A program made the position numbers and the translations under genes. 64,000 nt of DNA from Catellatospora methionotrophica (GTDB lineage: Bacteria > Actinomycetota > Actinomycetes > Mycobacteriales > Micromonosporaceae), in NCBI RefSeq assembly GCF_011297335.1, contig NZ_JAAOTJ010000001.1, positions 868,001 to 932,000 of the forward strand. The letters are read 5' to 3'. Of the stretch, positions 6,998 to 64,000 are shown one piece after another. How positions within the stretch are numbered: position 1 is the first letter of the stretch; every line of letters starts with the position of its first letter. The notes beneath the pieces were generated by a model. That model ran no database searches and was not told where the DNA came from. It was given only the letters and a program-made list of their open reading frames with translations.

Positions 6998-7024
6998 AGC
7001 AGTTCCTTCCGAAGGGGTGACAGG

Positions 7025-28900: not shown

Positions 28901-30904
28901 CACGTCGATCGGCATCGGCGGCACCGGTTCCTGCACCGGCACCCCGTCGACCTCGACGAACCGGGTGCGCAGCACCTCGTGGCGGGCCACGATCCGGGTC
29001 AGCGCCCCGGCCAGCGCCCCGTGGTCGAGCGGGCCGCGCAGGCGTACCGACACCTGCGTGTTGTAGGCCAGGTTGCCCGGCGCGAACCTCTCCAGGAACC
29101 AGACCCGCTCCTGCGGCAGCGACAGCGGCACGGGCCCGTCGCGGTGCGCCGGCACCAGCGGCGGCGCGACCGCCGGGCTGCTCGCCGCACCGCGCGGAGC
29201 GGCGTCGACGAGCGGGGCGAGCGCGCCGACGGTCGGCGCCCGGTAGATCGCGGGCAGCGGCACGTCGACGCCGAACTCGGTGCGCAGCCGCAGCGCGAGC
29301 CTGCCGACGAGCAGCGAGTGCCCGCCGAGGGCGAAGAAGTCGTCGTGCACGCCCGGGGCGGCGATGCCGAGCAGGTCACCGAACATGGCGGCCAGCCGCT
29401 GCTCGGTCGCGGTCCGCGCGGGCGCGGCGACTGCGGCGACCTGGGCGGCGCTGCGGTCGGGCGCGGGCAGCGCGGCCCGGTCGACCTTGCCGTGCGCGGT
29501 CAGCGGCAGCGACGGCAGCAGGACCAGCAGCGCGGGCACCAGGTACGCGGGCAGCCGCTCGGCCAGGTAGGCGCGCAGCTGCTCGGCGGCGGTGTCCGCG
29601 ACGGCGTAGGCGACCAGCCGGGCCGGGCCGTCGCCGTGCGCGTCGACGACGGTGACCGCGTCGCGGACCCCGGGGTGCTCCCGCAGGACGGCGGTCACCT
29701 CGCCGGGCTCGATCCGGAATCCGCGGATCTTCACCTGGTGGTCCAGCCGCCCGACGAAGTCGAACCCGCCGTCGGGCAGCTGCCGCACGGCGTCGCCGCT
29801 GCGGTACGTGCGCGCGCCGGGCGGACCGGCCGGGTCGGGCACGAACCGCTCGGCGGTCTGCCCCGGCCTGCCGAGGTAGCCGCGGGCCAGTCCTGCCCCT
29901 CCGATCAGCAGCTCACCGACCGCGCCCGCGGGCATCGGGCGCAGTGCGGCGTCGCCGACGGCCAGGGTCACGCCGTCGAAGCCGGCCCCGATCGACGGGC
30001 GGGCGGCGTCGGCGGGCACGTCACCGGCGGTGGCCCAGACGGTCACCTCGGTCGGCCCGTATCCGTTGAGCAGCCGCCGCCCCGTACCCCACCGGCGGGC
30101 CAGCGCCGCGGGCAGCGCCTCGCCGCCGCAGCCGATCACGGCCAGGTCGGGCAGGTCGGCCTCGGGCAGCGCGGCGAGCACCGACGGGGCGACGAGCAGG
30201 TGCGTGATCCGCCGGTCCCGCAGGAACGCGACGGTGTCGGGGCCGGGCAGCAGCGCGTCCTCGCTGTCGACCAGGACCAGGGTCGCCCCGGCCGACAGCG
30301 CCATCACCGTCTCGGCCACCGACACGTCGAAGCTGGCGGGGGCGAACTGGGCGACGCGGTCGCCGGGCCGCACACCGTAGCGCCGGACTTTGACCTCGGC
30401 CAGGTGGTCCAGCCCGGCACAGGTCAGGCCGACGGGTTTGGGCCGGCCCGTGGAACCGGAGGTGTAGATGACGTACGCGAGGGCGTCCGGGTGCACCTGG
30501 CGCGGAGAGGCCGTTTCGCCGGTGGCCGACAGGTCGGGGCGGATGATGCCGACCGCGCCGCACCCGGCCAGGTGCTCCGCGCTGCCGGGCCCGGCGACCA
30601 GGTGCCGGACGTTCGCGTCGTCGATCAGGTAGGACAGGCGCGCGGCCGGAAGGCCCGGGTCGAGCGGCAGCCACGCTCCCCCGGCCATCGCGATGCCGAG
30701 CATCCCCACGATCAGCTCCGGGGACCGTTCGGTGGACAACCCGACGACGGTCTCCGGGCCGACGCCCGCGTCCGCGAGCCGCTCCGCGAGCCGCGCTGCG
30801 GCCAGATTCAGCTCACGGTACGTGAGCACTGTGGGTCCACACTCGACTGCCGGAGTGTCCGGCGTGGTCGCGGCGTGCGATGCCAACTGGTCAAGGATGC
30901 CCAT
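25952..30904 (-). CDS. NRPS1: A-PCP-C-A-PCP, initiation module and module 2
   Basis: The first synthetase of the line (1650 aa). It begins directly with an A domain, so chain initiation uses a free amino acid rather than a fatty acyl group. A1 (TSGSTGRPKP at 149-158, pocket DVALGGGVWK) is followed by PCP1 (GGHSL, Ser530), C2 (HHFVHDGWS at 717-725), A2 (TSGSTGRPKG, pocket DAMFDGHVIK) and PCP2 (Ser1577). Neither pocket matches a code I know, so both substrates may be unusual. An acidic C-terminus (DLDLDLLTDAEVEALL) could act as a docking peptide for NRPS2. The ATG is the first start after the promoter region; the SD is weak (GGGTGTGG). It is the lead gene of the six-gene operon ending at mbtH. 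Confidence 0.93.
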   Translation of the reverse strand: MGILDQLASHAATTPDTPAVECGPTVLTYRELNLAAARLAERLADAGVGPETVVGLSTERSPELIVGMLGIAMAGGAWLPLDPGLPAARLSYLIDDANVRHLVAGPGSAEHLAGCGAVGIIRPDLSATGETASPRQVHPDALAYVIYTSGSTGRPKPVGLTCAGLDHLAEVKVRRYGVRPGDRVAQFAPASFDVSVAETVMALSAGATLVLVDSEDALLPGPDTVAFLRDRRITHLLVAPSVLAALPEADLPDLAVIGCGGEALPAALARRWGTGRRLLNGYGPTEVTVWATAGDVPADAARPSIGAGFDGVTLAVGDAALRPMPAGAVGELLIGGAGLARGYLGRPGQTAERFVPDPAGPPGARTYRSGDAVRQLPDGGFDFVGRLDHQVKIRGFRIEPGEVTAVLREHPGVRDAVTVVDAHGDGPARLVAYAVADTAAEQLRAYLAERLPAYLVPALLVLLPSLPLTAHGKVDRAALPAPDRSAAQVAAVAAPARTATEQRLAAMFGDLLGIAAPGVHDDFFALGGHSLLVGRLALRLRTEFGVDVPLPAIYRAPTVGALAPLVDAAPRGAASSPAVAPPLVPAHRDGPVPLSLPQERVWFLERFAPGNLAYNTQVSVRLRGPLDHGALAGALTRIVARHEVLRTRFVEVDGVPVQEPVPPMPIDVPVLDVADADAEGVIAAQLRHRFDLSRPPLAKWLLLRHGPDDHTLVQVEHHFVHDGWSFALLMSELVAIYPELAAGREPRLAEPPLQYADYALWQRDWMRGDVLREHLDHWTALLDGAPHVLDLPTDRPRPRTQSFAGAALRVVLDTELTAALSAYSREHRNSLFATMFAGFAALLTRYSGQRDLLVGTGSANRHTAQLEELLGMVVNTLVLRIRTGGRPSFDELVTRAAEATAAAYTRPDLPVDELIRELDPPRDPSRNPLFQVMFSFHDSAVPDLDFGGLTGTLTERHNGSAKADLNVVVIPRAAQRVGRAASAADAQTVLVWEYATDLFDEPTMRRMIDHYLHLLAAAVAAPGTPADRLPLEPADPHAAAEDGTPPGVLDLIAGHVHATPDAAAIVDATGTVTYGQLWQRAGDLAERLIADGAGLDSRVAVYARRGSSLVLGQLAALRAGAGYVPIDPDYPAARVAHLLADAHPVALLTTADLAADLPTAGCPVLVLDAGRPDAPSPQTGAARGPAALDRTHPQALAYLIFTSGSTGRPKGVEVTRANLDRLLAWRRDLAGPRPGERCTQVASPGFDASVMETWATLTAGASLHVVPDALRTDPAALVAWLAEHRIDVCFLPTPLAEAALDEPWPDGTRLRVLDTGGQQLTRTPPAGAPFVLVNHYGPTETTVIATGDVLTAGQTPTIGTPHAGVRARVLAGHEPQPAGLPGELCLGGPGVTRGYAGDPARTAAVFVPDPSGPPGSRMYRTGDQARLRPDGRLDFLGRTDQQVKLRGFRIELGEIAAVLREHPDVTDAVVVVQGAGGTQRLVAYTVGGAEPAELRAFAAERLPGFQVPATVVAMAALPIGPHGKVDPAALPPAVPAATAGRAPVTALQQQLAAHWAALLDRADLDLDSDFFAVGGHSLLAARLISRIEHSHGVRVPLAGFFAAPTIGWLAETVAATGATPDPVDAPDLDLDLLTDAEVEALLAVESAEER

Positions 30905-30941
30905 GCCACACCCGTTCTGACGGCGATGTCAAACGGTGGGG

Positions 30942-31280: not shown

Positions 31281-34200
31281 CTACCGCTCGCCCGCGAGCA
31301 GCGCCGTCTGGTCGGCCTCGGTGTCGTTGCCCAGCTGCCGGAAGATCAGGACGGCGGCGCGGGCGCTGGACCGCGCCTGCTCGGGGTCGCCAGCCAGCCG
31401 GTGCGCCTCGGCGAGGGCGGCGAGGGCCCTGGCCTCGGCGTAGGTGTTCTGCGCGTCGCGGTAGAGCTGCGCCGAGGCGCCCAGGCGGTCCAGTGCCGCG
31501 GGCGCGTCGCCGTCGGCGAGATCGAGCCGGCCGAGGGCGTTGAGCGCCAGCGCCTGCCCGAACACGGAGTGGCTCGCTCTGCTCAGCTCCAGCCCGCGTT
31601 CGAGCACCGGCCGCGCCCTGGGGTGCCCGCTGCCGACGTAGAGCGCGCCGAGGTGCCCGTGCAGGAAGGCCAGCTGCACCGGGTCGCCGGACTCCTCGGC
31701 GATGGCGATCGCCGCCACCAGCGCCTGCTCGGCCTCGTGGGGCTCGTCCTGGTCGCGGCGGATGATGCCGATCAGGCCCAGCGCGACGCTCTGGTCGCGG
31801 GAGCTGCCCAGGTCCCGGGCGATGGTCAGGGCCCGGTTCGCGTAGTTGAGCGCTTCATCGTTGCGTCCCTGCTGCCGGCGCACGATGCCGAGTAGCTGCC
31901 AGACGTGCAGCTCGCCGAGGTGGTAGTCCGCTGCGCGGCAGGCCTGCAGGCTCTCCTCCAGCCGGGTGACGGCCTCGGCGTGCTCGCCGCGCGTGCGGTG
32001 CACCGTCGCGCACAGGTAGAGCGCGTCGGCTTCGCCCCGGGTGTGGCGTACCTGCTGGAAGAGCCGCAGTGCGGCGGCGGCGAGTTCGAGCTTGCGCCCG
32101 ATGTCGGAGCCGGGTTTGGAACTGTGCAGGTCCGCGAGGTCGCGCAGCATGACCGCCTCGCCGAGCCGGTCGCCGGCGGCACGGCAGGCGGACAGCGCGG
32201 TCTCGTGGGCGTGCTGGCCGTCGTCGAAGAGGTCACGCAGCTCGTAGAAGCCGTGGGCCGCCGCGGCGAGTCCCCACGACAGGTCGGCGCGGCCGAGTCC
32301 GGCCGCCTGTGCGACGGCCGCGGCGATGGCCGCGCGTTCGGCCTCGAACCACGCCGACGGGGAGCCCGCGGCGGCTTCGACCCCGTCGCCGCCGGCAGCG
32401 GCCGGGCGGGGCGGCCGGATGTCGGCCAGGGTCGCGGCCGCCAGGGCCGCGCTGGCGGTCTGGGCCAGGGCAAGCCAGCTGTCCAGCGCACGCTCGATCA
32501 CCGCGAGCTGTGCTGCCGGTGGTTCCTGCCGGGCCGGTTCCCGCGCGAAGATCCGCACCAGGCAGTGCAGTCCGTAGCGCAGCTGGCCGGCCTGGTCGAC
32601 GCGGACCTCGTCGAGCAGGCGCCGGTCGACCAGGGCGCGCAGCACCTGGCGGTTCTCAGCCGTCGTCAGGTCGGCGGCCGCCGCCACCGCCCAGGCCGGG
32701 AAGTCGGCGGCGTCGAGCAGGGCCAGCCGGCACAGCGTGCGTTGCTCCACGGTGGACAGGCCCTGGTATCCGGCGGCGATGGTGGTGCGCACGTCGAGGT
32801 CGCCGATGCTGAGCTCGTCGAGCCGGCTTCGCTCGTCCACGAGCTGCTGGACGAGCCACGACATCGGCGTTCCGGGCGAGGCCGAGACGCGGGCGGCGGC
32901 GATGCGTACGGCGAGCGGAAGGTGGCCGCACAGGGCGGTCAGCGCGCTGGCGGCGGCCGGCTCGGCGGTGACGCGTTCGGTGCCGGCTATCTGCTCCAGC
33001 AGGCTCAGTGCGCAGGCCGGGCTGAAGACATCCAGGTCGACGAAGTGGCTGACATCCAGTGCCGACAGCCGCCGGCGGCTGACCACGACGGCGGCGCTGG
33101 GGCCGGAGCCGGGCAGCAGCGGCCGGACCTGCTGTTCGCCGGCGGCGTTGTCGAGCAGGATCAGTACCCTGTTCCCGGCCAGGCGGCTGCGCAGCAGGGC
33201 CGAGCGTTCGTCGGTGGTCTCCGGCATCTCCGATCCCTGGACGCCCAGCGCCCGCAGGAAGCGTCCGAGGACATCGCCCGGCGCGGTCGGCTGCGCGCTG
33301 TCGCCGTGCAGGTCGGCGTAGAGCTGGCCGTGGGGGTAGGCGTCACGCAGCAGGTGGGCCAGGCGGGTGGTGAGCGTGGTCTTGCCCACGCCGGCCCGGC
33401 CGGAGACCGCGACCAGGTGCATCGCCGTGCCCGGTCCCTGGTCGAGAACCTTCAGGCAGCCGGCGAGTTCCGTGTCGCGTCCGGTGAAGTCGCCGATGGA
33501 GGCCGGTGCCTGCCACGGTGCGTCGCGGGTCCCGTCGGGCTGCTTTCGGCCGGCGGCCGCCGGGGTCGCCGGTGGATCCGAGGCGGGCGGATCGTCGACG
33601 CTGTGCTCGGCGAGGATGTCGCGGTGGGCCTGGCGAAGGTGTGGTCCCGGTTCGATGCCGAAGTCCTCGGCCAGCCTGCGCCGCGCGTCCACGTAGGCGT
33701 TCAGCGCCTCTGCCCGCCGCCCTTGGGCGTTGAGGGCTCGCATCCACAGGGCGGTGATCCGCTCCCGGGCGGGATGCTCCTGCATGAGCTGGCTCAGCGG
33801 GCCGAGGAGCTTGTCGGCCCGCCCGGTGAGCAGGTCCGCCTCCATCCGTGCCTCCAGCGCGGCGAGGTGCAGTTCATGCAGGCGGGACGCGTAGGCGGCG
33901 ATCAGCGGTGAGGTGGCCACCGCGGCGAAGGCCGGGCCGCACCACAGGGTCAGCGCCGCATCGAGCAGGCGGGCGGCCCGGTCGACGTCACCGGCTCGCA
34001 GCGCCTCCTGTCCGTCGGCGGCGAGCTGCTCGAACCGGTACGCGTCCACGGACTCCCTGCCCACGTGGAGGCAGTAGGCGTTGGCCTCGGCGGTGAGCAC
34101 TGCCGTGCCGTCCTGGCCGATGGCTCGCCGCAGCGACAGGACGTAGCCGCGCAGCAGCGACCGCGCCGAGGCCGGCGGAGCACCGGACCACAGCTCGTCG

Positions 34201-34355
34201 GCGACGCGGCCGACCGGGATCGGCTCGCCGGCATGGATCATGAGGATGGCGAGCAGTGTTCGCGCCCTGCCCCCGGCTACCGCCTGCCACTCGTGCGCGC
34301 TGCGGATCTCCAGCGAGCCGAGACACCGAAACCGCAGGGACAACCTCAGCACCAT
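31281..34355 (-). CDS. AfsR/SARP-type regulator with NB-ARC and TPR domains
   Basis: A 1024-aa activator. It has an OmpR-like winged helix (FRCLGSLEIRS, then VADELWSGAPPASARSLLRG) over about the first 95 residues, a BTAD region to about 250 ending VDARRRLAEDFGIEPGP, an NB-ARC ATPase with P-loop SGRAGVGKTT near 330, and a long C-terminal TPR array (ELHVWQLLGIVRRQQGRNDEALNYANRAL and similar units). Start choice is uncertain: ATG at 34355 has GAGGG directly against it, and a TTG four codons later has a better-spaced GAGG. It diverges from the tlpA-like gene and sits upstream of the NRPS operon, so it could serve either system. It lies opposite to the tlpA promoter, which carries a SARP-type repeat. 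Confidence 0.85.
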   Translation of the reverse strand: MVLRLSLRFRCLGSLEIRSAHEWQAVAGGRARTLLAILMIHAGEPIPVGRVADELWSGAPPASARSLLRGYVLSLRRAIGQDGTAVLTAEANAYCLHVGRESVDAYRFEQLAADGQEALRAGDVDRAARLLDAALTLWCGPAFAAVATSPLIAAYASRLHELHLAALEARMEADLLTGRADKLLGPLSQLMQEHPARERITALWMRALNAQGRRAEALNAYVDARRRLAEDFGIEPGPHLRQAHRDILAEHSVDDPPASDPPATPAAAGRKQPDGTRDAPWQAPASIGDFTGRDTELAGCLKVLDQGPGTAMHLVAVSGRAGVGKTTLTTRLAHLLRDAYPHGQLYADLHGDSAQPTAPGDVLGRFLRALGVQGSEMPETTDERSALLRSRLAGNRVLILLDNAAGEQQVRPLLPGSGPSAAVVVSRRRLSALDVSHFVDLDVFSPACALSLLEQIAGTERVTAEPAAASALTALCGHLPLAVRIAAARVSASPGTPMSWLVQQLVDERSRLDELSIGDLDVRTTIAAGYQGLSTVEQRTLCRLALLDAADFPAWAVAAAADLTTAENRQVLRALVDRRLLDEVRVDQAGQLRYGLHCLVRIFAREPARQEPPAAQLAVIERALDSWLALAQTASAALAAATLADIRPPRPAAAGGDGVEAAAGSPSAWFEAERAAIAAAVAQAAGLGRADLSWGLAAAAHGFYELRDLFDDGQHAHETALSACRAAGDRLGEAVMLRDLADLHSSKPGSDIGRKLELAAAALRLFQQVRHTRGEADALYLCATVHRTRGEHAEAVTRLEESLQACRAADYHLGELHVWQLLGIVRRQQGRNDEALNYANRALTIARDLGSSRDQSVALGLIGIIRRDQDEPHEAEQALVAAIAIAEESGDPVQLAFLHGHLGALYVGSGHPRARPVLERGLELSRASHSVFGQALALNALGRLDLADGDAPAALDRLGASAQLYRDAQNTYAEARALAALAEAHRLAGDPEQARSSARAAVLIFRQLGNDTEADQTALLAGER

Positions 34356-34437
34356 CCCTCGATTGATCAACCAACCTGAATCCTACCGGGCGAGGGCGGC
34401 CAATGTGGACTGGACATCGTCACCGCTGAATCAGAAA

Positions 34438-34469
34438 TGTATGGCGCTTGTATCCGTGCTGGCTAGCCT
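34438..34469 (+). promoter_or_regulatory. SARP-type promoter of the thioredoxin/ABC exporter operon
   Basis: Two heptamers, TGTATGG (34438-34444) and TGTATCC (34449-34455), repeat every 11 bases. Eight bases after the second lies a -10-like TAGCCT (34464-34469), and six bases later the ATG. Known SARP sites are heptamer direct repeats with this period, placed 8 bases before the -10. The message would be leaderless. The same layout recurs exactly at the S26 peptidase promoter. Confidence 0.65.
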
Positions 34470-34475
34470 GCGCGG

Positions 34476-35021
34476 ATGGCATACCTATGGATCGCTTTCG
34501 CCATCGTCACCACCATCTGCCTGCTCAATCTGCTCCTGGCCTTCGGCATGATCCGCCGTCTGCGTGAGCACGGCGCGCTGCTGTCCAAGATGCCGACCGG
34601 GCCCACGGCCACGGATCTGATCCTGCCGGCGGGCGCGCAGATCGGCTCGTTCTCAGCCGTCACCACCGCTGGTGAGGCGGTCTCCACCGCCTCGTTCGCC
34701 GACGGGACGCTCGTCGGCTTCTTCTCCCCCGGCTGCGCGCCGTGCCGGGAGCGCCTGCCCGAGTTCGTCGCCTACGCCGCCGAACTCGGTGGCCGGGACC
34801 GGGTCTTCGCCGTCGTCGTCGCCGATGTGGCCGCCGAGGCCACCGCCACCGTCGAGCAGCTGACCGACGTGGCACGGGTCGTGCTGGAGAAGGACGAGGG
34901 GCCGGTCGCCGCCGCCTTCGGCGTGAAGGGCTTCCCCGCGGTCGGTCTCGTCTCCGCCGACGGAACCATGGTGGCCAGCGGCTCCATGCTCTCCGGCCTG
35001 CCCCGGCCCGCCGCCGTATGA
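34476..35021 (+). CDS. Membrane-anchored TlpA/MauD-like thioredoxin-fold protein
   Basis: A 181-aa protein with one N-terminal transmembrane helix (about 4-24) followed by a thioredoxin fold outside the cell. The active site is CAPC (Cys87, Cys90) in GFFSPGCAPCRERLPEF, with the conserved cis-Pro in GVKGFPAVGLV. Such proteins reduce or rearrange disulfides outside the membrane; MauD does so for the disulfide-rich methylamine dehydrogenase subunit. There is no SD: the ATG lies 6 bases from the -10, so translation is probably leaderless. It overlaps the ABC exporter gene (ATGA). Next to a peptide with eight cysteines, the natural inference is that it shapes or proof-reads the peptide's disulfides after export. 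Confidence 0.85.
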   Translation: MAYLWIAFAIVTTICLLNLLLAFGMIRRLREHGALLSKMPTGPTATDLILPAGAQIGSFSAVTTAGEAVSTASFADGTLVGFFSPGCAPCRERLPEFVAYAAELGGRDRVFAVVVADVAAEATATVEQLTDVARVVLEKDEGPVAAAFGVKGFPAVGLVSADGTMVASGSMLSGLPRPAAV

Positions 35022-36877
35022 CGACGGAGTTCACCGCCGCCGCCCCGCCCAGCCGCCGGGAGCTGCTGCGCGCGGGCAGGCTCGCGGCCGTCATCGCGCG
35101 CCGGGGGGCCGCCGCCACCACCGCCTCGTACGCCGTCTGCGCCCTCGCCGGGGCGGCGGTGCCGGTGGCCGCCGCCTGGCTCACCAAGATGCTGCTCGAC
35201 CTGATCACCACCGGCGGGGCGCTCGCCACGGTCACGGCGGTCGGCTGCGGCCTCGCGGTCGCGGGCCTGGCCACCGCGGCGTTTCCGCAGCTGACCCAGT
35301 ATCTGCGCACGCAGCTCGACCAGCGTGTCGCCCTGCTGGCACAGGATGAGCTCTACCGCGCGGTGGAGCGCTTCAGCGGGCTGGCCTACTTCGAGAACCC
35401 CGCCTTCCTGGACCGGCTCCGGCTGGCGCAGCAGGGCGCCGCCGCACCGGCTCAGGTGGTCGACGGTTCGCTCGGCCTGACCCGGGGGGTGCTGACCCTG
35501 CTCGGCTTCCTCGGCTCGCTCGCCGTGATCAGCCCGGTCATGACGCTGGCGGTCCTCGCGACGGCGGTGCCGACACTCCTGCTGGAGCTGCAGCTGTCCC
35601 GGCGGCGGGCGGCGATGATCTGGGACCTGGGCCCGACCGAGCGGCGCGAGTTCTTCTACCGCAACCTGCTCGGCAGCGTCGACGCCGCCAAGGAGATCCG
35701 GTTGTTCGGCACCGGCGGCTTCCTGCGCGGGCGGATGCTGGCCGAACTGCGGGAGGTGTTCGGGGCCAAGCGCCGGATGGACCGCCGCGAGCTGATCACC
35801 CAGGGCGGGCTCGCCGCGCTGAGCGCGATCGTCGCCGGGGCGGGCCTGGTCTGGGCCGCCCGGCAGGCGCGGGCGGGGGCGCTCACGGTCGGTGACGTCG
35901 CCATGTTCCTCGTCGTCGTGCCGGGAGTGCTGGGTGCGATGCAGCAGCTGATCGTGTCGGTGGCGCACACGCACCAGCAGCTCACCGTCTTCCACCACTA
36001 CGCGATGGTCGTCGACGCCGCACCGGACCTGCCGCTGAGTGCCGACCCCCGCGCGCTGCCCGTGCTGCGGCGCGGCATCGAACTGAGCGACGTGTGGTTC
36101 CGCTACAGCGACGAGCACCCGTGGGTGCTGCGCGGGGTGAACCTGTTCATCCCGCACGGCACGACGGTCGGGCTCGTCGGCCTCAACGGCGCCGGCAAGA
36201 GCACCCTGGTGAAGCTGGTCTGCCGGTTCTACGACCCGGACCGTGGCAGCATCACCTGGGACGGCGTGGACCTGCGCGACGTGGAGATCACGGAGTTGCG
36301 TACGCGCATCGGCGCGGTGTTCCAGGACTACATGAGCTATGACCTCACCGCCGCCGACAACATCGGGCTCGGTGACATCGCGAGCATCGACGACCGGCCG
36401 GTGCTGGTCGCCGCGGCGCAGCGGGCGGGCGTGCACGCCGCGGTCACGGCGCTGCCCCGAGGGTACGACACGATGCTGAGCCGGATGTTCTTCGGCGAGT
36501 CCGACCAGGGCGACCCGGAGACCGGAGTCCGCTTCTCCGGCGGGCAGTGGCAACGGCTGGCGCTGGCCCGCGCGTTCCTGCGGGACAAGCGGGACCTGAT
36601 GATCCTCGACGAGCCGAGCGCGGGCCTCGACGCGCAGGCCGAGTTCGAGGTGCACCAGCGGTTGCGCGAGCACCGGGCGGACCGGACGAGCCTGCTCATC
36701 TCCCACCGGCTGGGCTCACTGCGCGACGCCGACAGCATCGTCGTGCTCGCCGACGGGGTCGTCACCGAGCAGGGCGACCACGTGACGCTGATGGCCGCCG
36801 ACGGCGCCTACGCGCAGCTGTTCCAGTTGCAGGCCACCGGCTACCAGCTGTCGGAGCAGGCGGGCCACGGCGACTAG
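35018..36877 (+). CDS. ABC exporter, fused membrane and ATPase domains
   Basis: A 619-aa half-transporter. The membrane domain (about 25-330) has roughly six helices, and an ATP-binding domain follows. Walker A GLNGAGKST lies at about 387-395, the Q-loop is FQDY, the signature is FSGGQWQRLALARAF, Walker B is LMILDEPSAGLD and the H-loop is SHRLG. It has no N-terminal C39 peptidase, so any leader must be cut by another enzyme; the S26 peptidase encoded nearby fits this. It is translationally coupled to the thioredoxin gene. Its stop shares the palindrome CTAG with the stop of the converging SARP gene. The peptide encoded at 40347 is the obvious candidate cargo, but that is inference. Confidence 0.9.
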   Translation: MTTEFTAAAPPSRRELLRAGRLAAVIARRGAAATTASYAVCALAGAAVPVAAAWLTKMLLDLITTGGALATVTAVGCGLAVAGLATAAFPQLTQYLRTQLDQRVALLAQDELYRAVERFSGLAYFENPAFLDRLRLAQQGAAAPAQVVDGSLGLTRGVLTLLGFLGSLAVISPVMTLAVLATAVPTLLLELQLSRRRAAMIWDLGPTERREFFYRNLLGSVDAAKEIRLFGTGGFLRGRMLAELREVFGAKRRMDRRELITQGGLAALSAIVAGAGLVWAARQARAGALTVGDVAMFLVVVPGVLGAMQQLIVSVAHTHQQLTVFHHYAMVVDAAPDLPLSADPRALPVLRRGIELSDVWFRYSDEHPWVLRGVNLFIPHGTTVGLVGLNGAGKSTLVKLVCRFYDPDRGSITWDGVDLRDVEITELRTRIGAVFQDYMSYDLTAADNIGLGDIASIDDRPVLVAAAQRAGVHAAVTALPRGYDTMLSRMFFGESDQGDPETGVRFSGGQWQRLALARAFLRDKRDLMILDEPSAGLDAQAEFEVHQRLREHRADRTSLLISHRLGSLRDADSIVVLADGVVTEQGDHVTLMAADGAYAQLFQLQATGYQLSEQAGHGD

Positions 36878-39675
36878 AGCAGGTACTCGGCGGCGACGCG
36901 GTCCTTCAGGTCGCCCTCGTCGCCCCGGCTGAGCTTGTCCAGCAGCATGGTGGCGAAGCGTTCGCGGTTGCCGTCCCCGTACGACCGTGACAGGTCCCAG
37001 GCCGACCGCAGATCGGCCGCCATCTGGCTGCGCTGCCCCAGCCGCTGGTGCGCCGCGGCGCGCCACACCAGTGCCTGCCAGCTGTGATGGTGGGCCGAGG
37101 TGGCCCGGCACCGGGCGAGCGCGTCGGTCAGCCTGCCCACGGCGCGCAGATCGCTGCCGCGCAGGCAGTCGGTGATGCCCATCGCGGCCAGGGTGATCGC
37201 CTCGCCGGTGAGGTCCCGCTCGGCCTGGCGGACCGCCAGCGCCTGCTCGAACGAACTCTCCGCCTCCGCGTAACGACCCAGGCGGCACAGGACCTCCCCG
37301 GCCTCGTGCAGCGCGTGGCCCGCCGCCAGCCGCAGGCCGTGCCGGTCGTACAGCGCCGCGCCGTCCCGCAGCCGGGCCAGTCCCGACTCAAGGTCACCCG
37401 AGCGGACCAGTGTCCGGCCCAGCGCCGTGAGGCAGTCGGCGACGCCGTGCTCGTCGCCGAAACGGCGCCGCAGCTCGCCCGCCCGCTCCAGATAGGAGAC
37501 GGCCTGGGCGAACGTGCCGCGGGCCCGGCAGACGGCGGCGAGGCACACCATCGCCTCCGCCTCGGCATGCCAGGCGGCATCACGCACGGCGACGGCCCGC
37601 GACAGCTGGGCGAGTTCGTCCAGGTCGTCCCAGCTGTCGTCGGCCGCGAGGTACTGGTGCAGGCAGGAGAGCAACAGCGGCACGAAGCGGGCGACGGCGG
37701 CGCGCTCGTCGGCCACCTGGCGCGCCAGCGTCAGCAGGTTGGCCCGCTCCTGATCCAGCCACGCCGTCGCCGCTGGCGCGTCGGCGAACTCCAGCCGTGG
37801 GACGGTCTCGAAGAACCCGTCGTCGCGGGCCGGCCGGAACGCGGGCTGTACCAGTTCCCAGGCCCGGCGCACCGTGCAGAGATAGAAGCACAGCAGGCGG
37901 TGCAGCGCCTCGGGACGGCCCGCGACGGCGAGGTCCCCGGCGAACAGCCGGACCAGGTCGCCGATCCGGAACCGGCCGGGCCCGGTCTGCTCGACCAGGC
38001 GCTGCTCGATCAGCTGGTCGAAGGCCGTCGCCGCCTGAGCCGATGACAGGTCGCCCAGGGCGGCGACCGCGGTGAGCGTGAACTCGTCGATGCGGACCAG
38101 GCCGAGCAGACCGAGCAGGGTCGCGGCGTCGCCGCCGACCGCACGGAAGCTCAGCTCGACGCTGGAGCGCACGGCCAGATCGCCGCATGCGAGCGTATCG
38201 AGCCGGGTCCGCTCGTCGGACAGCTGCCGGACCAGTTCGCCGATGCTCCACAGCGGCCGGGCGGCCAGACGGGCGCCGGCGATGCGCAGGGCGAGCGGCA
38301 ATCGGTCGCAGAGCACCGTCAGGCGCGCGGTCTCCGTCGGCTCGGCCGCGATCCGCTCGGGTCCGCAGACCGCCGCCAGCAGCTGCGCCGCGGCTTGCTC
38401 GGTGAGGCGGTTCACCTCGATGTGCACGGCGCGGTCGATCGTCGCGAGCATCCGCCGACTGGTGATCATGACGACGGTGCCGCCCCCGCCGACCAGCAGT
38501 GGACGGACCTGCTCCGCGCTGGTCGCGTTGTCCAGCAGCACGAGCATCCGGCGCTGCACCACGAAGGACCGGTAGCGCGCCGACGCCTCCGCCTCGCTCT
38601 GCGGCATCTGATCGGCCGGTACGCCGAGCGTCCGGATGACCCGTCGCAGCACGTCCACCGGAGCTTGCGGCTGCCCGCCGGGGCCGCTCAGGTCCACATA
38701 GATCTGGCCGTCGGGAAACGACGGTGCGATCTGGTGGGCGACATGGACCGCGAGCGCCGACTTGCCGACGCCGCCGGCGCCGTAGAAGGCGATGGTCGCC
38801 ACGTCCGCCAGCGCCCCCGTCGCCATCGCGACCTCCCGGTCCCGGCCCACCAGGCGCGCCACGTCCGAGGGGAGCTCCCGCGGGCGGATCTCCGCCCCGT
38901 CGGCGACCCTCGGCTCCGGCAGCAGCGCCGGGTCGCGGCTGAGCACAGCCTGGTAGAGGGCGGACAGCTCCGAGCCGGGGTCGACGCCGAGATCGCGGAC
39001 GAGCGCGGAGCGGGCCTGCTCATAGGCGTCCAGGGCACCGGCGATGTCGCCGGTACGGTAAAGGCAGACGATGAGCTGCTGCCAGAACTGCTCCCGGAGC
39101 GGGTGCTCGTAGGTGAGCTGCCGTAGTTCCGGGATGAGCTGCGCGTTCTCGCCGAGCTGCTGCCGGGCCGCGACCAGCTCCTCGATGACGGTGAGCCGCT
39201 GCTGGTCCAGCCCGGCCAGGCGCGTCGCGAGCAGGCCGGACCGGCAGGTGTCCTCGCCGGCAGCGCCCCGCCATCGCGCCAGCGCCTCCCGGAAGGCGCC
39301 GACCGCCTGCCGCAGCTCACCACGGCCCATCGCGGCCCGCCCGGCCGCCGCGCGCTGGGTGAAGACGGTGACATCGAGCTCATCGTCGGCCGCCGTCAGC
39401 AGATAGCCGGGCGGGCGACCGGCGAGCCGGCTGTCACCGCTGCCGTCGGTCAGCGTCAGGCGCAGCTGCGAGGCGTAGGTGCGGATGTTCGCGACGGCCG
39501 AGGTGGGCGGATCACGTTCCCACAGGGTCGCGATGAGGCGGTTCACGGAGACGACACGGTTGGCGTCGAGCAGCAGCGAGGCGAGCAGCATCCGCTGTTT
39601 GACGGAGCCCGCGGCGACGGCGACCCCGTCGCGTCTGAGTTCCAGCGGGCCGAGCAGGCAGAACTCCCAACCCAT
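36874..39675 (-). CDS. AfsR/SARP-type regulator with NB-ARC and TPR domains
   Basis: A 933-aa regulator. It has a winged helix (MGWEFCLLGPLELRRDGVAV start, then VNRLIATLWERDPPTSAVANIR), a BTAD region ending YEQARSALVRDLGVDPGSEL, a shorter linker, an NB-ARC domain with P-loop YGAGGVGKSA near 300, and TPR-like helices. GGGAGG lies 5 bases before the ATG. It follows the S26 peptidase gene by 33 bases on the same strand, so the two probably form one operon read from the repeat-containing promoter at 40237-40268. That makes it the best candidate to bind the TGTAT repeats and to activate its own operon together with tlpA-ABC. Confidence 0.87.
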   Translation of the reverse strand: MGWEFCLLGPLELRRDGVAVAAGSVKQRMLLASLLLDANRVVSVNRLIATLWERDPPTSAVANIRTYASQLRLTLTDGSGDSRLAGRPPGYLLTAADDELDVTVFTQRAAAGRAAMGRGELRQAVGAFREALARWRGAAGEDTCRSGLLATRLAGLDQQRLTVIEELVAARQQLGENAQLIPELRQLTYEHPLREQFWQQLIVCLYRTGDIAGALDAYEQARSALVRDLGVDPGSELSALYQAVLSRDPALLPEPRVADGAEIRPRELPSDVARLVGRDREVAMATGALADVATIAFYGAGGVGKSALAVHVAHQIAPSFPDGQIYVDLSGPGGQPQAPVDVLRRVIRTLGVPADQMPQSEAEASARYRSFVVQRRMLVLLDNATSAEQVRPLLVGGGGTVVMITSRRMLATIDRAVHIEVNRLTEQAAAQLLAAVCGPERIAAEPTETARLTVLCDRLPLALRIAGARLAARPLWSIGELVRQLSDERTRLDTLACGDLAVRSSVELSFRAVGGDAATLLGLLGLVRIDEFTLTAVAALGDLSSAQAATAFDQLIEQRLVEQTGPGRFRIGDLVRLFAGDLAVAGRPEALHRLLCFYLCTVRRAWELVQPAFRPARDDGFFETVPRLEFADAPAATAWLDQERANLLTLARQVADERAAVARFVPLLLSCLHQYLAADDSWDDLDELAQLSRAVAVRDAAWHAEAEAMVCLAAVCRARGTFAQAVSYLERAGELRRRFGDEHGVADCLTALGRTLVRSGDLESGLARLRDGAALYDRHGLRLAAGHALHEAGEVLCRLGRYAEAESSFEQALAVRQAERDLTGEAITLAAMGITDCLRGSDLRAVGRLTDALARCRATSAHHHSWQALVWRAAAHQRLGQRSQMAADLRSAWDLSRSYGDGNRERFATMLLDKLSRGDEGDLKDRVAAEYLL

Positions 39676-39708
39676 TCACGCCTCCCGATCCCGTCGCCGA
39701 TGTCGATG

Positions 39709-40230
39709 CTAGGCGTGCGGTGGCACGGCGGGTTCCAGCCGCTTGACCACCAGACCCCACAGCTGCTCGTCGGTGAAGTAGCCGCAGGTTCGGGAGTCGA
39801 AGCTGAGCTCGGCGTTGTCGCCGACCGCGACGAACCGGCCGGGGGGCACCGCCTGCTCGGCGGTGTGGCGCAGCGCTTCCACCGTGTCCCGCGGCACCTC
39901 GTCGCCCGGGACGGCGACCACCCGTTTGATCAGCCATGCGCCGGTCGCGTCGGCCCAGGCGTCATCGGCGACGACGGCGGACTTCGCCACGCCCGGCACG
40001 GTCCAGGTGGCGCTTTCGGCCAGCGACGGGCGCGCCACCATGACCACGTCGCCGCTGCGTACGCCGGCAAGGGCGGTGCGGCGCACGAGCACGCGGTCGC
40101 CCGGGTGCAGCGCCGGAGCCATGCTCTGGCCGTGGACCGTCACCACGGTCAGCCGCCCGCGCATCCGCCGGATCACCAGCACGACGCAGACGGTGGCGAT
40201 CAACAATCCGGCAACGGCGACGGTCCACAT
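39709..40230 (-). CDS. S26-family (type I) signal peptidase
   Basis: A 173-aa serine/lysine protease anchored by one N-terminal helix (about 2-21) with its active site outside the membrane. The nucleophile is Ser36 in VHGQSMAPALHPGD and the general base Lys102 in LIKRVVAVPGDEV. The late motif GDNAELSFDSRTCGYF matches the family box GDN..SxDSR. It is shorter than housekeeping LepB. Upstream in-frame ATGs exist at 40254 and 40269, but both lie inside the TGTAT direct repeat. The ATG at 40230 sits 6 bases after the -10, exactly as in the thioredoxin gene, so I chose it and predict a leaderless message. It is divergent from the Cys/Tyr-rich peptide gene, whose AAAA-C junction is a possible cleavage site. 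Confidence 0.85.
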   Translation of the reverse strand: MWTVAVAGLLIATVCVVLVIRRMRGRLTVVTVHGQSMAPALHPGDRVLVRRTALAGVRSGDVVMVARPSLAESATWTVPGVAKSAVVADDAWADATGAWLIKRVVAVPGDEVPRDTVEALRHTAEQAVPPGRFVAVGDNAELSFDSRTCGYFTDEQLWGLVVKRLEPAVPPHA

Positions 40231-40236
40231 TGGCCA

Positions 40237-40268
40237 AGCATGCCGCCGCGACATACAAAGCGGATACA
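40237..40268 (-). promoter_or_regulatory. SARP-type promoter of the signal peptidase/SARP operon
   Basis: Read on the minus strand: TGTATCC (40268-40262), 4 bases, TGTATGT (40257-40251), 8 bases, a -10-like CATGCT (40242-40237), 6 bases, then ATG at 40230. Every spacing equals that of the thioredoxin promoter. The repeat lies in the gap to the divergent peptide gene, so a bound SARP could act on both sides. Confidence 0.6.
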
Positions 40269-40346
40269 TTCCTGGATGCGTAGCGCGATCGGGCGGTTCG
40301 TGTACACCGCGGCGTTAGCGTCGGCTACCCGAAGAAAGGAGCTTCA

Positions 40347-40559
40347 ATGATCAAGCTGATCGAGCGTATCAGTGACCGCATGACCGCATTCGTCGTGCCG
40401 AAGGCCGACGCGGCAGCGGCGTGCCCGCCGTGTTACGTGACCGGCTGCTACTGCAGCGGGACACGGACGCAGGGTTACCGCTACTGCTACGCCTACGACG
40501 GGTACAACTGCTACAAGGTCTACAACGGCTGCGCGAGCAACTACTACAACTGCAACTGA
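40347..40559 (+). CDS. Small Cys/Tyr-rich peptide precursor (putative)
   Basis: A 70-aa peptide that I do not recognise. Residues 1-25 (starting MIKLIERISDRMTAFVVPKA) form a charged, weakly hydrophobic leader ending in DAAAA, which contains an A-x-A-type cut site just before the first Cys. Residues 26-70 hold 8 Cys (26, 29, 34, 36, 47, 55, 62, 69) and 11 Tyr but no Met, Trp or Phe. The even Cys count allows four disulfides. A strong AAAGGAG lies 5 bases before the ATG, and a hairpin follows the stop. The flanking S26 peptidase, thioredoxin-like protein and ABC exporter suggest export, leader removal and disulfide formation. No RiPP-modifying enzyme (LanM, YcaO, radical SAM) is visible, so crosslinks beyond disulfides are not indicated. 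It could be a structural surface peptide rather than an antibiotic. Confidence 0.8.
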   Translation: MIKLIERISDRMTAFVVPKADAAAACPPCYVTGCYCSGTRTQGYRYCYAYDGYNCYKVYNGCASNYYNCN

Positions 40560-40569
40560 CGTAGGCACG

Positions 40570-40603
40570 GCGTGGTGGCGGCGTGTACTCCGCCCCACCA
40601 CGC
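40570..40603 (+). terminator. Hairpin after the peptide gene
   Basis: GCGTGGTGG pairs with CCACCACGC (9 bases), extended by CGG/CCG after a small bulge, beginning 11 bases past the peptide stop. A likely terminator that keeps the peptide gene a single-gene transcript. Confidence 0.55.
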
Positions 40604-40759: not shown

Positions 40760-43537
40760 TTGCGGTTTGGCATTCTCGGCCCGGTCGAGGCGTTCACCGG
40801 CGACCACACCGTCACCCTCGGCCAGCCGCGACACCGGGCCCTGCTGGCATACCTGCTCCTGCACCCGCACCGCGTCACCACCATCGACCAGCTCATCGGC
40901 GCCCTGTGGGGCGATGACGCACCCACCTCGGCACGCGACCAGATCCACGTCGCCGTGTCCGCGCTACGCCGATCCCTGCGCGCACTGCCCGCCGACACCG
41001 CCGTCCTCACCACCGCGGGCGGCTACCGGCTCACCCTCGACGGCGCCACCGTCGACGCGCACCTGTTCACCGACACCGTCGCCACCGCCAGGCAGGCCAC
41101 CGCCGCCGGGGCGCACGCCCGCGCCGCCGGGCTGCTGACCGACGCGCTGGCACTGTGGCGCGGCGAGGCGCTGGCCGATGTACGGGCCGCGTTCGCCGCC
41201 ACAGCCCGCCAGCGGCTGAAAGACCACCGCCTCGACGCCGAAGAGCAGCTCGCCGACGCCGAACTCGCCCGAGGCCGCCCCGAGCAGGCGATCAGGCTGC
41301 TCAGCGACCTCGTCGAGCTGCGCCCCTCGCGCGAGCGGCTCGCCGGACGGCTGATGCTGGCGCTGCACGGCTGCGGGCGCACCGCCGAGGCGATGCAGGT
41401 CTACGAGAACCTGCGCCGCCACCTGGCCCAGGAGTACGGCACCGACCCGGGTCCGGCCGTGCGGCAGGTGCATCTGCAACTGCTGCGCGGCACGCTGCGC
41501 GCCTCACCGCCGCCGGCCGGTCCGGACCGCACCGCCCGGGTCGTGCCCCGCCAGCTGCCCGCCGCCCCGGCCGTATTCGCGGGCCGCCGCCGCGAATGGG
41601 CCCAGCTCGACGGGGTCCTCGCCGCCATGCGCCCGCGCACACCCGCCGTCGTCGCCGTCGTCGGCACCGCCGGCGTCGGCAAGACCGCACTAGCCCTGAA
41701 CTGGGCGCACAGCGTCGCCGACCGGTTCCCCGACGGGCAGCTCTACCTGAACCTGCGCGGGTTCGACGGCCGCCGGCCGATGGGCACCGCCGAGGCCGTG
41801 CGGACCCTCATCGACGCCGTCGCCGAAGACGTCCACCAGATCCCCGAGCGTCTCGACGCGCAGATCGGCCTGCTGCGCAGCCTGCTCGCCGAACGCAGCG
41901 TGCTGCTCGTGCTGGACAACGTCCGCGACGCCGAGCAGGCCCGGCCGCTGCTGCCCGGATCGGCCGCCAGCCTGACCGTGGTCACCAGCCGCAACCAGCT
42001 GCCGGGGCTGGTCGCGGCCGAAGGCGCCGAACCGGTGCTGCTCGACCTGCTGTCGGCCGCCGAAGCGCGCGAACTGCTGGGCACGCGCCTAGGCCCGCGT
42101 CGCGTCGCCGAGGCCGGTGCCGCTGTCGACGCCATCGTGCAGGCGTGTGCCCGGCTGCCGCTGGCGTTGACGATCGTGGCCGCCCGCGCGGCGACCTACC
42201 CTGACCTTGCGCTGTCGAGGCTGGCCGACGAGCTGCGCCCGGCCCGCCACGGGCTCGACCCGTTCGCCGGTCCCGACACCGAGGCCGGTATCCGGGCCGC
42301 GTTCCGCTGGTCGTACCAGGCCCTGTCCGCGTCCGGGGCCGCGCTGTTCCGGCTGCTGGGGCTGCATCCGGGCCCGGATGTGGCAGCACCGGCGGCGGCC
42401 AGCCTGGCAGCAGTGCCGCTGCGGGCGGCGCGACTGCTGCTGGTCGAGCTGGTCCACGCCAACCTGCTGGCAGAGCACGCCCCCGGCCGGTGGTCGATGC
42501 ACGACCTGCTGCGCACGTTCGCCGCGGAGCTCGCCGAGGAGTCACTGCCCGAGCAGGAGCAGGCGCAGGCCGTACGGCGGCTGGTCGACCACCTGCTGCA
42601 CACCGCGCACGCCGCCGACACCGTGCTGCAGCCGTTCCGCAAGCCGACCGCCCTTGCCCCGGCGCCCGACGGCGTGACCGTCCACCCCGTCAGCGACATG
42701 GACGAGGCCCTGGCCTGGTTCGACGGGGAACGCGCGGCGCTACTGGCGGCGGTCGACCGGGCCGCCGAGGCGGGCTGGGACGAGCAGGCGTGGCTGCTGG
42801 CCTGGTCGCTGGAGACGTACCTGGACCGGCGCGCCCGCTGGCGGGAGTGGCACGACTCGCAGCTGCCGGCGCTGGCGGCGGCGCAGCGCCACGGCAGTCC
42901 GTCGATGCGGGCCAGCTCCCACCGCGGCCTGGCGACCGCGCTGAGCAAGATGGGCCGCCACGACGAGGCCTACGGCCACCACCAGCAGGGGCTGGCGCTG
43001 TCCACCGCGATCGGCGACGGCCAGGGCGCCGCCCGCTCGCTGCGCAGCATCGCCTTCCTGCTGGAGGAGCAGGGCAGGCACGACGAGGCCCTGACTCACG
43101 CCCGCGAGGCGGTGGCCGTGTCCGACTCGCTGGGCGACGCGATGTCGGCCGCCCGCGCCCGCAACCTCGTCGGCTGGCTGCACGCGCAGCTCGGCGACCA
43201 CCAGCAGGCCTTGGCGCACTGCCAGCGGGCCGCACGTGAGCTGGACGCGATGGGCAACCGCAACGCGCTCGCGCACACCCTGGACAGCCTCGGCTTCATC
43301 CACCGCTGCCGGGGTGAGGCGGAGCTGGCCGTGTCCTACTACCTGCAGGCGGTGCGGCTGTACCGGGAGACGGGCCACCGCTACGGCGAGGCCGAGAGCC
43401 TGATCCGGCTCGGCGAGACCCATCAGGCGGTCGGCGCGACCGAGGCCTGCGCCCAGGCGTGGGAGGCGGCCTCGGCGATCCTGGACGACCTGCCCAACGC
43501 GGTGGCGGCGCAGCTGCGCGATTCCATACCCATCTGA
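40760..43537 (+). CDS. AfsR/SARP-type regulator with NB-ARC and TPR domains
   Basis: A 925-aa regulator: winged helix (FGILGPVEAFTGDHTVTLGQ), BTAD region ending NLRRHLAQEYGTDPGPAV, NB-ARC domain with P-loop VGTAGVGKTALALNWAH near 300, and a TPR array toward the end. It is the closest of the four regulators to the one at 2341 in the NB-ARC section (both read NWAH/HWAH and RFPDGQLYLNL), suggesting related origin. The start is TTG, supported by GGGGAGGA 7 bases upstream; homology begins exactly there, although the frame is open further. It is transcribed alone and converges on the hydrolase gene. No target can be named. Confidence 0.85.
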   Translation: MRFGILGPVEAFTGDHTVTLGQPRHRALLAYLLLHPHRVTTIDQLIGALWGDDAPTSARDQIHVAVSALRRSLRALPADTAVLTTAGGYRLTLDGATVDAHLFTDTVATARQATAAGAHARAAGLLTDALALWRGEALADVRAAFAATARQRLKDHRLDAEEQLADAELARGRPEQAIRLLSDLVELRPSRERLAGRLMLALHGCGRTAEAMQVYENLRRHLAQEYGTDPGPAVRQVHLQLLRGTLRASPPPAGPDRTARVVPRQLPAAPAVFAGRRREWAQLDGVLAAMRPRTPAVVAVVGTAGVGKTALALNWAHSVADRFPDGQLYLNLRGFDGRRPMGTAEAVRTLIDAVAEDVHQIPERLDAQIGLLRSLLAERSVLLVLDNVRDAEQARPLLPGSAASLTVVTSRNQLPGLVAAEGAEPVLLDLLSAAEARELLGTRLGPRRVAEAGAAVDAIVQACARLPLALTIVAARAATYPDLALSRLADELRPARHGLDPFAGPDTEAGIRAAFRWSYQALSASGAALFRLLGLHPGPDVAAPAAASLAAVPLRAARLLLVELVHANLLAEHAPGRWSMHDLLRTFAAELAEESLPEQEQAQAVRRLVDHLLHTAHAADTVLQPFRKPTALAPAPDGVTVHPVSDMDEALAWFDGERAALLAAVDRAAEAGWDEQAWLLAWSLETYLDRRARWREWHDSQLPALAAAQRHGSPSMRASSHRGLATALSKMGRHDEAYGHHQQGLALSTAIGDGQGAARSLRSIAFLLEEQGRHDEALTHAREAVAVSDSLGDAMSAARARNLVGWLHAQLGDHQQALAHCQRAARELDAMGNRNALAHTLDSLGFIHRCRGEAELAVSYYLQAVRLYRETGHRYGEAESLIRLGETHQAVGATEACAQAWEAASAILDDLPNAVAAQLRDSIPI

Positions 43538-55113: not shown

Positions 55114-55829
55114 GCGAGTCGCCCTCCATCTACGATCACTGTTTGTCCGGTCAGATAGGTGTTGCGGTCGGAGACCAGGAAGGTGACGACCTCCGCGACC
55201 TCGTCCTTGTCGGCGAGGCGGCCCAGCGGGATGTCGGCGACGTAGGCCGCGGTCGACGCGCCCGAACCGGCCCAGCCGGGATTGGCGATCTTGCCGGGGG
55301 CGACGGTGTTCACCAGTACGCCGTCGCGGCCGTAGCGCACCGCGAAAAGCCGGGTCAGTGCCGCCAGGCCCGCTTTCGCGGCGGCGTACGCCGCTCCGGC
55401 GGTCGTGCGCCCGGTGTCGGCGGCGGTGGAGCCCACGAGCACGACCCGCCCGCGACCCGCAGCCGCCATGGCCGGCACGATCGTGCGGGTCAGCAGGAAG
55501 CAGCTGGTCAGGTTGACGTCGATGACCTGCCGGAACAGTGCCGCCGAAACCTCGGCCTCGGCGACCGGCTCACCGTCGGGCCCCTTGGGGGACCAGCCCT
55601 GGCACAGCACCAGCACTTCCGGAGCCCCGAGCCGGTCGAGCAGCAGACGCACCCGCTCGCCGGTAGCCGTCTCGTCCGCGAGGTCCGTCTCGTGGAATTC
55701 GACGCCGGGCAGGGCGGGACCCGCCAGGTCGAGCACCACCACCTTGCGGCCGGCGCGCAGCAGCCGGTCGGCGACCGCCGTGCCGAGCTGCCCGGCGCCG
55801 CCGCCAATCAGCGCGTAGCCGGCGCTCAT
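55110..55829 (-). CDS. Short-chain dehydrogenase/reductase
   Basis: A 239-aa classical SDR. The nucleotide site is GGGAGQLGTAVADRLLRAG, with Asp at the end of the second strand (VVVLDLAG) favouring NAD(H). The catalytic Ser and Tyr-x-x-x-Lys are in VLVGSTAADTG and AAYAAAKAG. The late TGQTVIVDGG is the usual C-terminal strand. The Asn-Ala-Gly motif reads LCQGW, a deviation. It is translationally coupled to both neighbours. It probably oxidises or reduces an alcohol or ketone adjacent to the EPSP-like step. Confidence 0.88.
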   Translation of the reverse strand: MSAGYALIGGGAGQLGTAVADRLLRAGRKVVVLDLAGPALPGVEFHETDLADETATGERVRLLLDRLGAPEVLVLCQGWSPKGPDGEPVAEAEVSAALFRQVIDVNLTSCFLLTRTIVPAMAAAGRGRVVLVGSTAADTGRTTAGAAYAAAKAGLAALTRLFAVRYGRDGVLVNTVAPGKIANPGWAGSGASTAAYVADIPLGRLADKDEVAEVVTFLVSDRNTYLTGQTVIVDGGRLA

Positions 55830-58409: not shown

Positions 58410-58451
58410 GGTGTTTCCCCCATGGTGGTCGAACGCTCCCCGAGGAGCGCG

Positions 58452-62414: not shown

Positions 62415-63938
<1,524 letters not shown>

Positions 63939-64000
63939 GGTGGGGGCCTCGCAGGCTCGGTGGTCGGCACGGAGATGGTCGATCAGCGCGGCGCTGCGCG

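Follow-up and report, generated by a model that had tools for sequence, protein, structure and literature searches.

Do the genes surrounding a 70-residue, Cys- and Tyr-rich open reading frame in Catellatospora methionotrophica work together as one system, and if so, on what kind of product? The frame lies in a 64,000-nucleotide stretch of this actinomycete (contig NZ_JAAOTJ010000001.1, positions 868,001 to 932,000; hereafter the window), next to genes for a TlpA-like thioredoxin, an ABC exporter, an S26 signal peptidase and a SARP/AfsR-like regulator. We found that TlpA, ABC, S26 and the peptide form one widespread, hardly studied actinomycete gene set, and we consider it probable (roughly 0.8) that the window carries one copy of a system dedicated to maturing and exporting small disulfide-bonded peptides. 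The features of the locus, numbered within the window, are as follows.

34476-35021, + strand: TlpA-like membrane-anchored thioredoxin; CAPC at residues 87-90, cis-Pro at position 154, single N-terminal hydrophobic segment
35018-36877, + strand: ABC exporter with fused membrane and ATPase domains; its start codon overlaps the TlpA stop; Pfam matches without Peptidase_C39
36874-39675, - strand: SARP/AfsR-like regulator (BTAD, NB-ARC, TPR); co-oriented with the S26 gene and 33 bases downstream of it, convergent with the ABC gene
39709-40269, - strand: S26 signal peptidase; Ser49/Lys115, GDN..SxDSR box, alternative start five codons further in
40270-40346, no strand: divergent intergenic gap between the S26 gene and the peptide gene
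40347-40559, + strand: precursor peptide gene; 70 residues, 8 Cys, 11 Tyr; leader at residues 1-24, core of about 46 residues with 8 Cys
40419-40556, + strand: predicted mature core for a cut after A24 (ACPPCYVTGC...YNCN), placed by alignment of the leader end

The peptide is a gene and belongs to a large family

C. vulcania and C. coxensis, which share the genus of the window's host (Micromonosporaceae), both carry a peptide identical to that of the window. The codon differences from these two relatives (6 and 5 respectively) are all synonymous, with 0 non-synonymous; the peptide thus evolves as a protein and behaves as a genuine gene, as the initial annotation, which had described its 8 Cys and 11 Tyr, had assumed. 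Its ATG is preceded by AAAGGAG at 40335-40341, within the divergent gap. The neighbours also proved to be as first described: a TlpA-like protein with CAPC, an ABC protein without a C39 domain, an S26 peptidase with Ser49 and Lys115, and a SARP with BTAD, NB-ARC and TPR domains. The S26 protein matched Pfam Peptidase_S26 at 1.1e-20, with the Ser/Lys dyad and the conserved boxes present. Pfam matches of the seven locus proteins included no lanthipeptide, YcaO or radical-SAM enzyme, in line with the annotation, and Rfam and tRNA scans of the window gave no matches.

The single window peptide, searched against 300 genomes of Micromonosporaceae, had matches in 41 genomes from 18 of 44 genera (E<=0.01). 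A profile of 37 members, searched against 394 genomes of the class with at most 16 candidates scored per genome (a possible under-count), matched in 43 genomes at E<=0.01 and in 23 at E<=1e-4, the latter spread over three families (f1, f19 and f21); only E<=1e-4 was counted here, since matches at about 0.001-0.01 were mostly leader-like stretches inside long frames. A contig scan with the window peptide returned two identical Catellatospora peptides (the same records as genomes G100 and G109) and one chance match (L006). Among the same-genus genomes listed, 3 of 11 had a peptide match, an accessory distribution, while a genome of another genus (G009) encodes a peptide 91% identical to the window's, at a locus (L037) that holds all three partner genes. 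The plasmid collection added named members in Streptomyces, Embleya and Nonomuraea, although the Nonomuraea record, at 11.85 Mb, is hardly a plasmid. A phylum-wide search with the ABC protein reached only G000 and G317 of 396 genomes; as it scored three candidates per genome it under-counts, and it was not used for distribution.

This large family has no match in Pfam or NCBIfam: for the 37 members, NCBIfam gave one match (0.044) and Pfam two (0.04 and 0.067), each to one member and chance-like. PHROGs gave one weak match (0.0046), to one family member, and none of the phage records matched TlpA at 1e-8. One stretch (L053, 7733-9110, + strand) holds four tandem leader peptides whose cores differ, with PP replacing the PK or PR of most members, and with no export machinery in the stretch.

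Peptide and machinery are linked across genomes

Linkage was assessed in 101 stretches, mostly of 16 kb: the window, 40 stretches from the family search (41 of the 55 places listed; one stretch from the window's own genome), 40 from the class search (two from the own genome; not covering five places at E<=3.5e-5, nor weaker ones) and 20 controls from arbitrary places of the same genomes. All were scored with five profiles (peptide, TlpA, ABC, S26 and MauE) trained on the family stretches, and the loci are partly non-independent, some sharing a genome or coming from close relatives. The peptide was present in 80 of the 81 non-control stretches, the remaining one (L070, fetched for a weak match) having none of the families. 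TlpA, ABC and S26 occurred together at 64 of these 80 peptide loci, while 0 of the 20 control stretches contained any of the five families. Moreover, the nearest machinery gene lay within 1 kb of the peptide in 70 of the 71 loci having any machinery, and the TlpA gene stood immediately upstream of the ABC gene in 62 of 67.

The fifth profile represents a component overlooked by the initial annotation, a MauE-type membrane redox protein, which was found at 55 of the 80 peptide loci (17/39 family, 35/38 class, 3/3 other own-genome and 0/1 window). A full set also stands on a Streptomyces atratus plasmid (L205, 5161-5415, + strand), where MauE, ABC, S26 and a BTAD regulator are annotated and TlpA is called hypothetical; the peptide frame there has no listed gene in the PLSDB table, which is incomplete.

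The host genome encodes four peptides, and its four closest ABC proteins (E<=1.7e-152; next 6.9e-65) and four best TlpA matches (E<=2.7e-13; next 1.8e-5) lie at the same four loci. In the reverse direction, ten chosen genomes gave a list of 36 ABC matches, of which 20 were fetched regardless of peptides, 12 of them from a single genome (G075): S26 was present at 18, TlpA at 16, the peptide at 15 and MauE at 5. This G075, a 14 Mb Micromonosporaceae genome with 10% contamination, holds about 20 exporter copies (20 ABC matches at E<=1e-90, including one at 5.8e-96 with only 40% identity), and the peptide was found in 11 of its 12 fetched ABC-selected stretches, with differing cores. The co-occurrence in other genomes that the initial annotation had proposed as a check was thus recovered both from the peptide (64/80 loci against 0/20 controls) and from the exporter (15/20).

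These counts bear on the view that the adjacency of the genes is accidental and that secretion or retention of the peptide does not depend on them. Nine peptide loci that stand alone speak for it, but it is contradicted by the controls, by the reverse search and by the coincidence of peptide, ABC and TlpA at all four host loci, and we regard it as barely credible.

Several observations do weigh against a single dedicated system: i) at least one of TlpA, ABC and S26 is missing from 16 of the 80 peptide loci, and all machinery from 9 of the 80; ii) 5 of the 20 ABC-selected loci have no peptide; iii) the nine lone peptide loci come from four genomes (G007, G026, G083 and G040), each encoding ABC elsewhere, and in G007 the sole ABC copy (L167) has S26 but neither TlpA nor peptide beside it; iv) the MauE gene is absent at the window locus, as scored with the MauE profile; v) the membrane domain of the window ABC protein scores 25.5 in Pfam, slightly below the cut-off of 28; and vi) the recurring neighbours include no immunity gene among frames of at least 90 residues in the window and family stretches. 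The ABC genes elsewhere in the lone-locus genomes may permit action in trans.

Cysteine parity points to disulfides

If the product is disulfide-bonded, what do its cysteines show? Among 93 peptides scoring at least 25 bits, the core Cys count was even in 93 (4, 6, 8 or 10); the whole-peptide count was even in 91, the other two members carrying one extra leader Cys. These cores fall into 56 clusters at 30% identity, and all 56 are entirely even. Further even cores came from the ABC search (17/17) and from three weaker and six plasmid-record peptides (9/9), bringing the total to 119 of 119, with core counts from 4 to 12. By comparison, control-stretch open frames of 50-110 residues with at least four Cys were even in 294 cases and odd in 205. 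Even counts are what full disulfide pairing predicts, and they support the disulfide-type reading of the initial annotation, as does the MauE family that it had missed. Because the Cys counts are even and redox genes are present, four disulfides would be expected in the window peptide.

Cysteines could instead bind metal or form thioethers, as in metallothionein-like or lanthipeptide-like products. The high Cys content would suit such chemistry, and MauE is chiefly known for its part in maturing an enzyme; against this stand the 119 even cores and the recurring neighbours, since no other modifying-enzyme family recurs in more than five window or family stretches among frames of at least 90 residues. 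The families recurring at that rate in these stretches were only TlpA, ABC, S26, MauE, SARP and their shadow frames; the survey of the other loci included no dedicated enzyme-model search. A lanthipeptide or metal-binding peptide is thus disfavoured by the even counts and by the clustering of recurring families, and we consider it very improbable.

The leader and its probable cleavage site

Alignment of the family showed a conserved leader (L.DR.L...VPKA.A.AAC-like) followed by hypervariable, Cys-rich cores, the leader conservation being partly by construction because the expression used to pick members required P and A before Cys (not A-x-A). Ala occupies position 24 in 37 of 37 aligned members and position 22 in 35 of 37. 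A cut after A24, leaving a core of 46 residues, therefore appears to fit the family better than one after A25: of the initial split into a 25-residue leader and a 45-residue core, the leader with its Ala-rich end stands and the boundary would shift by one residue. The A-x-A motif was also present in 44 of 46 class members found by hidden Markov model, where shuffling leads one to expect 17. As no C39 domain was found in the ABC protein, the S26 peptidase and this motif most likely account for leader removal.

The leader is amphipathic in composition, the hydrophobic moment of its residues 1-17 being matched by 179 of 5000 shuffles. An ordinary Sec-secreted peptide is disfavoured, as the 93 leaders show no hydrophobic core of the Sec type: the best segment of 12 residues had a median hydropathy of 0.85 and a maximum of 1.75, and the longest run free of charged residues had a median length of 7 and a maximum of 15. 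AlphaFold modelled the precursor (mean pLDDT, the per-residue confidence, 72; pTM, the global one, 0.43) with a leader helix at residues 5-16 (pLDDT about 55) and three strands in the core (about 72-86). Foldseek of this model against PDB gave a best E of 0.59, and a profile search of PDB sequences with the peptide returned none at E<=1, so that no fold is claimed.

Redox partners and the order of steps

Catalytic residues are conserved in the partner proteins. In aligned columns, the two CxxC cysteines were present in 84 and 84 of 87 TlpA homologues, of which 86 had Pro at the cis-Pro site; Ser and Lys were each present in 82 of 88 S26 homologues; and the two CxC cysteines were found in 54 and 53 of 61 MauE homologues. 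MauE from a relative's locus is a clear PF07291 match (4.4e-27). The host genome encodes MauE at its three other peptide loci and once alone (L188, 6052-7014, + strand), where the other four families are absent from the 14 kb stretch. This solitary MauE might serve the MauE-less window locus in trans.

From the linkage, the conserved residues and the Cys parity, we infer the following route: i) the conserved leader would direct the precursor to the membrane machinery; ii) the TlpA-like thioredoxin would make the disulfides, four in the window peptide; iii) a MauE-type membrane protein, encoded elsewhere in the host genome, would re-oxidise this thioredoxin; iv) the S26 peptidase would cut the leader after A-x-A, as motif and catalytic residues suggest; and v) the ABC exporter would carry the peptide out. 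Export through the ABC protein would be the straightforward interpretation, because the leader is amphipathic, with a helix modelled at low confidence, and has no Sec-like core.

On which side of the membrane would oxidation take place? For TlpA, 81 of 87 homologues could be analysed: the flank after the single hydrophobic segment (RRLREH-like) exceeded the N-terminal flank in positive charge in 74 and fell below it in 0. In MauE, the first loop and the loop bearing CxC carry mean net charges of +4.4 and +5.05, the other loops -0.75 to +0.2. A TlpA relative in the host genome with a lipoprotein-like start, of canonical exported type (L192), served as a single control and shows the opposite charge pattern, with an Arg-rich N-terminus. 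The S26 flanks are ambiguous (C-terminal above N-terminal in 29 and the reverse in 34, among 77). The pattern in TlpA and MauE thus does not appear to favour export followed by oxidation outside, and either side may apply. As these charges would place the thioredoxin domain and the MauE CxC on the cytosolic side, oxidation may precede export.

Carried further, oxidation and leader removal would both occur on the cytosolic face, MauE would hand electrons to the quinone pool, and the ABC protein would export the folded peptide. The inside-type flanks of 74 of the 81 TlpA homologues (reversed in 0), the positive charge of the CxC-bearing MauE loop and the opposite pattern of the lipoprotein-like relative all suit this order. 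On the other hand, the positive-inside rule is a statistical one and its control here is one protein, the S26 flanks are ambiguous, and the cytosol is reducing, so that stable disulfides there would demand a strong local oxidant; we hold this order to be possible, with the odds rather against it. A bolder extension is diversification of a conotoxin-like kind, in which a fixed leader and membrane machine accept almost any even-Cys core, with cytosolic oxidation by the MauE-linked thioredoxin, an inward-facing S26 cut and export of the already folded product. This combination we judge unlikely.

Regulation, neighbouring genes and possible role

Two further regulators of the same type flank the locus.

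31281-34370, - strand: second SARP/AfsR-like regulator; divergent from the TlpA-ABC pair, also bordering a nonribosomal peptide synthetase (NRPS) gene; membership uncertain
40760-43537, + strand: third SARP/AfsR-like regulator; follows the peptide gene, with TTG at 40760 as its probable start; membership uncertain

BTAD-type regulators were found in 2 of 20 controls, compared with 19 of 40 stretches from the family search, 24 of 40 from the class search and 8 of 20 selected by ABC; at one plasmid locus the regulator listed is of AraC type and BTAD genes are missing, in a table that is incomplete. SARP control of the locus is plausible from gene proximity and this enrichment. The "shared promoters" of the initial annotation amount to geometry: the TlpA-ABC pair begins at a divergent intergenic gap, and so does the peptide gene.

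The NRPS gene (25955-30928, - strand), with condensation, AMP-binding and PP-binding domains, adjoins the peptide locus, and further long frames lie at 7028-25954; the SARP at 31281-34370 may serve this cluster instead of the peptide. Elsewhere in the window are another AMP-binding gene (62418-63998) and an MFS gene (5597-7024), as well as an EPSP-synthase-like gene that overlaps the frame of an FrhB-type F420 dehydrogenase with ferredoxin-like domains (55829-58451, - strand), an unusual pairing.

What might the peptide do? Hypervariable cores on a constant leader, the 20 ABC matches in one genome, the accessory distribution and the plasmid copies together suggest a secreted bioactive product (a toxin, an inhibitor or a signal), of which an antibacterial peptide may be only one option. 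Antibacterial bacteriocins, with the ABC exporter doubling as immunity, would account for the variable cores, the multiplied exporters of G075, the presence in 3 of the 11 same-genus genomes listed and the Streptomyces plasmid copies. An antibacterial peptide usually needs an immunity gene, and the lack of one among the recurring neighbours counts against this role, as does the fact that inhibitors, antifungals or signals would fit the same pattern; we regard it as quite possible, at slightly less than even odds.

Such a family makes overlooked small open reading frames coherent, by giving them a recognisable leader, a cleavage motif, a Cys rule and compact machinery. It thus offers i) a means of mining the genomes of antibiotic-producing bacteria for many new disulfide-rich peptides, ii) a possible leader-directed route for making designed disulfide peptides, and iii) a testable case for the function of MauE and its thioredoxin partner.

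Comparison with known systems

The closest precedent comes from decRiPPter, whose account describes three Streptomyces candidate families of ribosomally synthesized and post-translationally modified peptides with mauE, to which one of them adds mauD; every family has a precursor with 8 Cys or more, and the authors propose a role in precursor modification (Kloosterman 2020, PMC7794033). MauE occurs in those families and at 55 of the 80 present peptide loci, the window locus not among them, and the Cys-rich precursors of the present loci have 4 to 12 core Cys. The decRiPPter candidates are from Streptomyces only, and the account of them gives no leader definition, Cys parity, S26 or ABC linkage, Micromonosporaceae members or follow-up. 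Identity of those families with ours is likely. Among the top-ranked open-access papers, to which our survey was confined, there was no characterisation of such a system beyond these candidates; a Campylobacter paper that mentions MauE (PMC10783030) concerns other thioredoxins and was not used.

In methylamine dehydrogenase maturation, MauD and MauE, a membrane-anchored thioredoxin and its membrane partner, act on a Cys-rich polypeptide (the role of MauE is cited in PMC7794033); the substrate of the window system would be a short peptide instead. The window TlpA-like protein matched no MauD model at E<=1, in a library expected to include one. Staphylococcal AgrD has an amphipathic leader that is removed by a type I (S26) signal peptidase, and yields a thiolactone signal made with AgrB. 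The window system shares the amphipathic leader and would share the S26 removal, whereas AgrD is not known to use such an exporter or redox pair.

Pediocin-like class IIa bacteriocins and sublancin-type glycocins combine a leader, a dedicated ABC exporter and a thiol-disulfide helper to give a disulfide-bonded secreted peptide, and their exporters carry a C39 leader peptidase that cuts at a double-Gly leader. The window system likewise has a leader, a probably dedicated ABC exporter and a putative redox helper. Unlike the pediocin-like kind, no C39 domain was found in its ABC protein, and it has a separate S26 peptidase with an A-x-A leader, a MauE-type partner and hypervariable cores. The system would work like the exporters of disulfide-bonded bacteriocins, but as it shows neither the C39 domain nor the double-Gly leader that define the double-glycine kind, we see it as a variant rather than a member of that kind.

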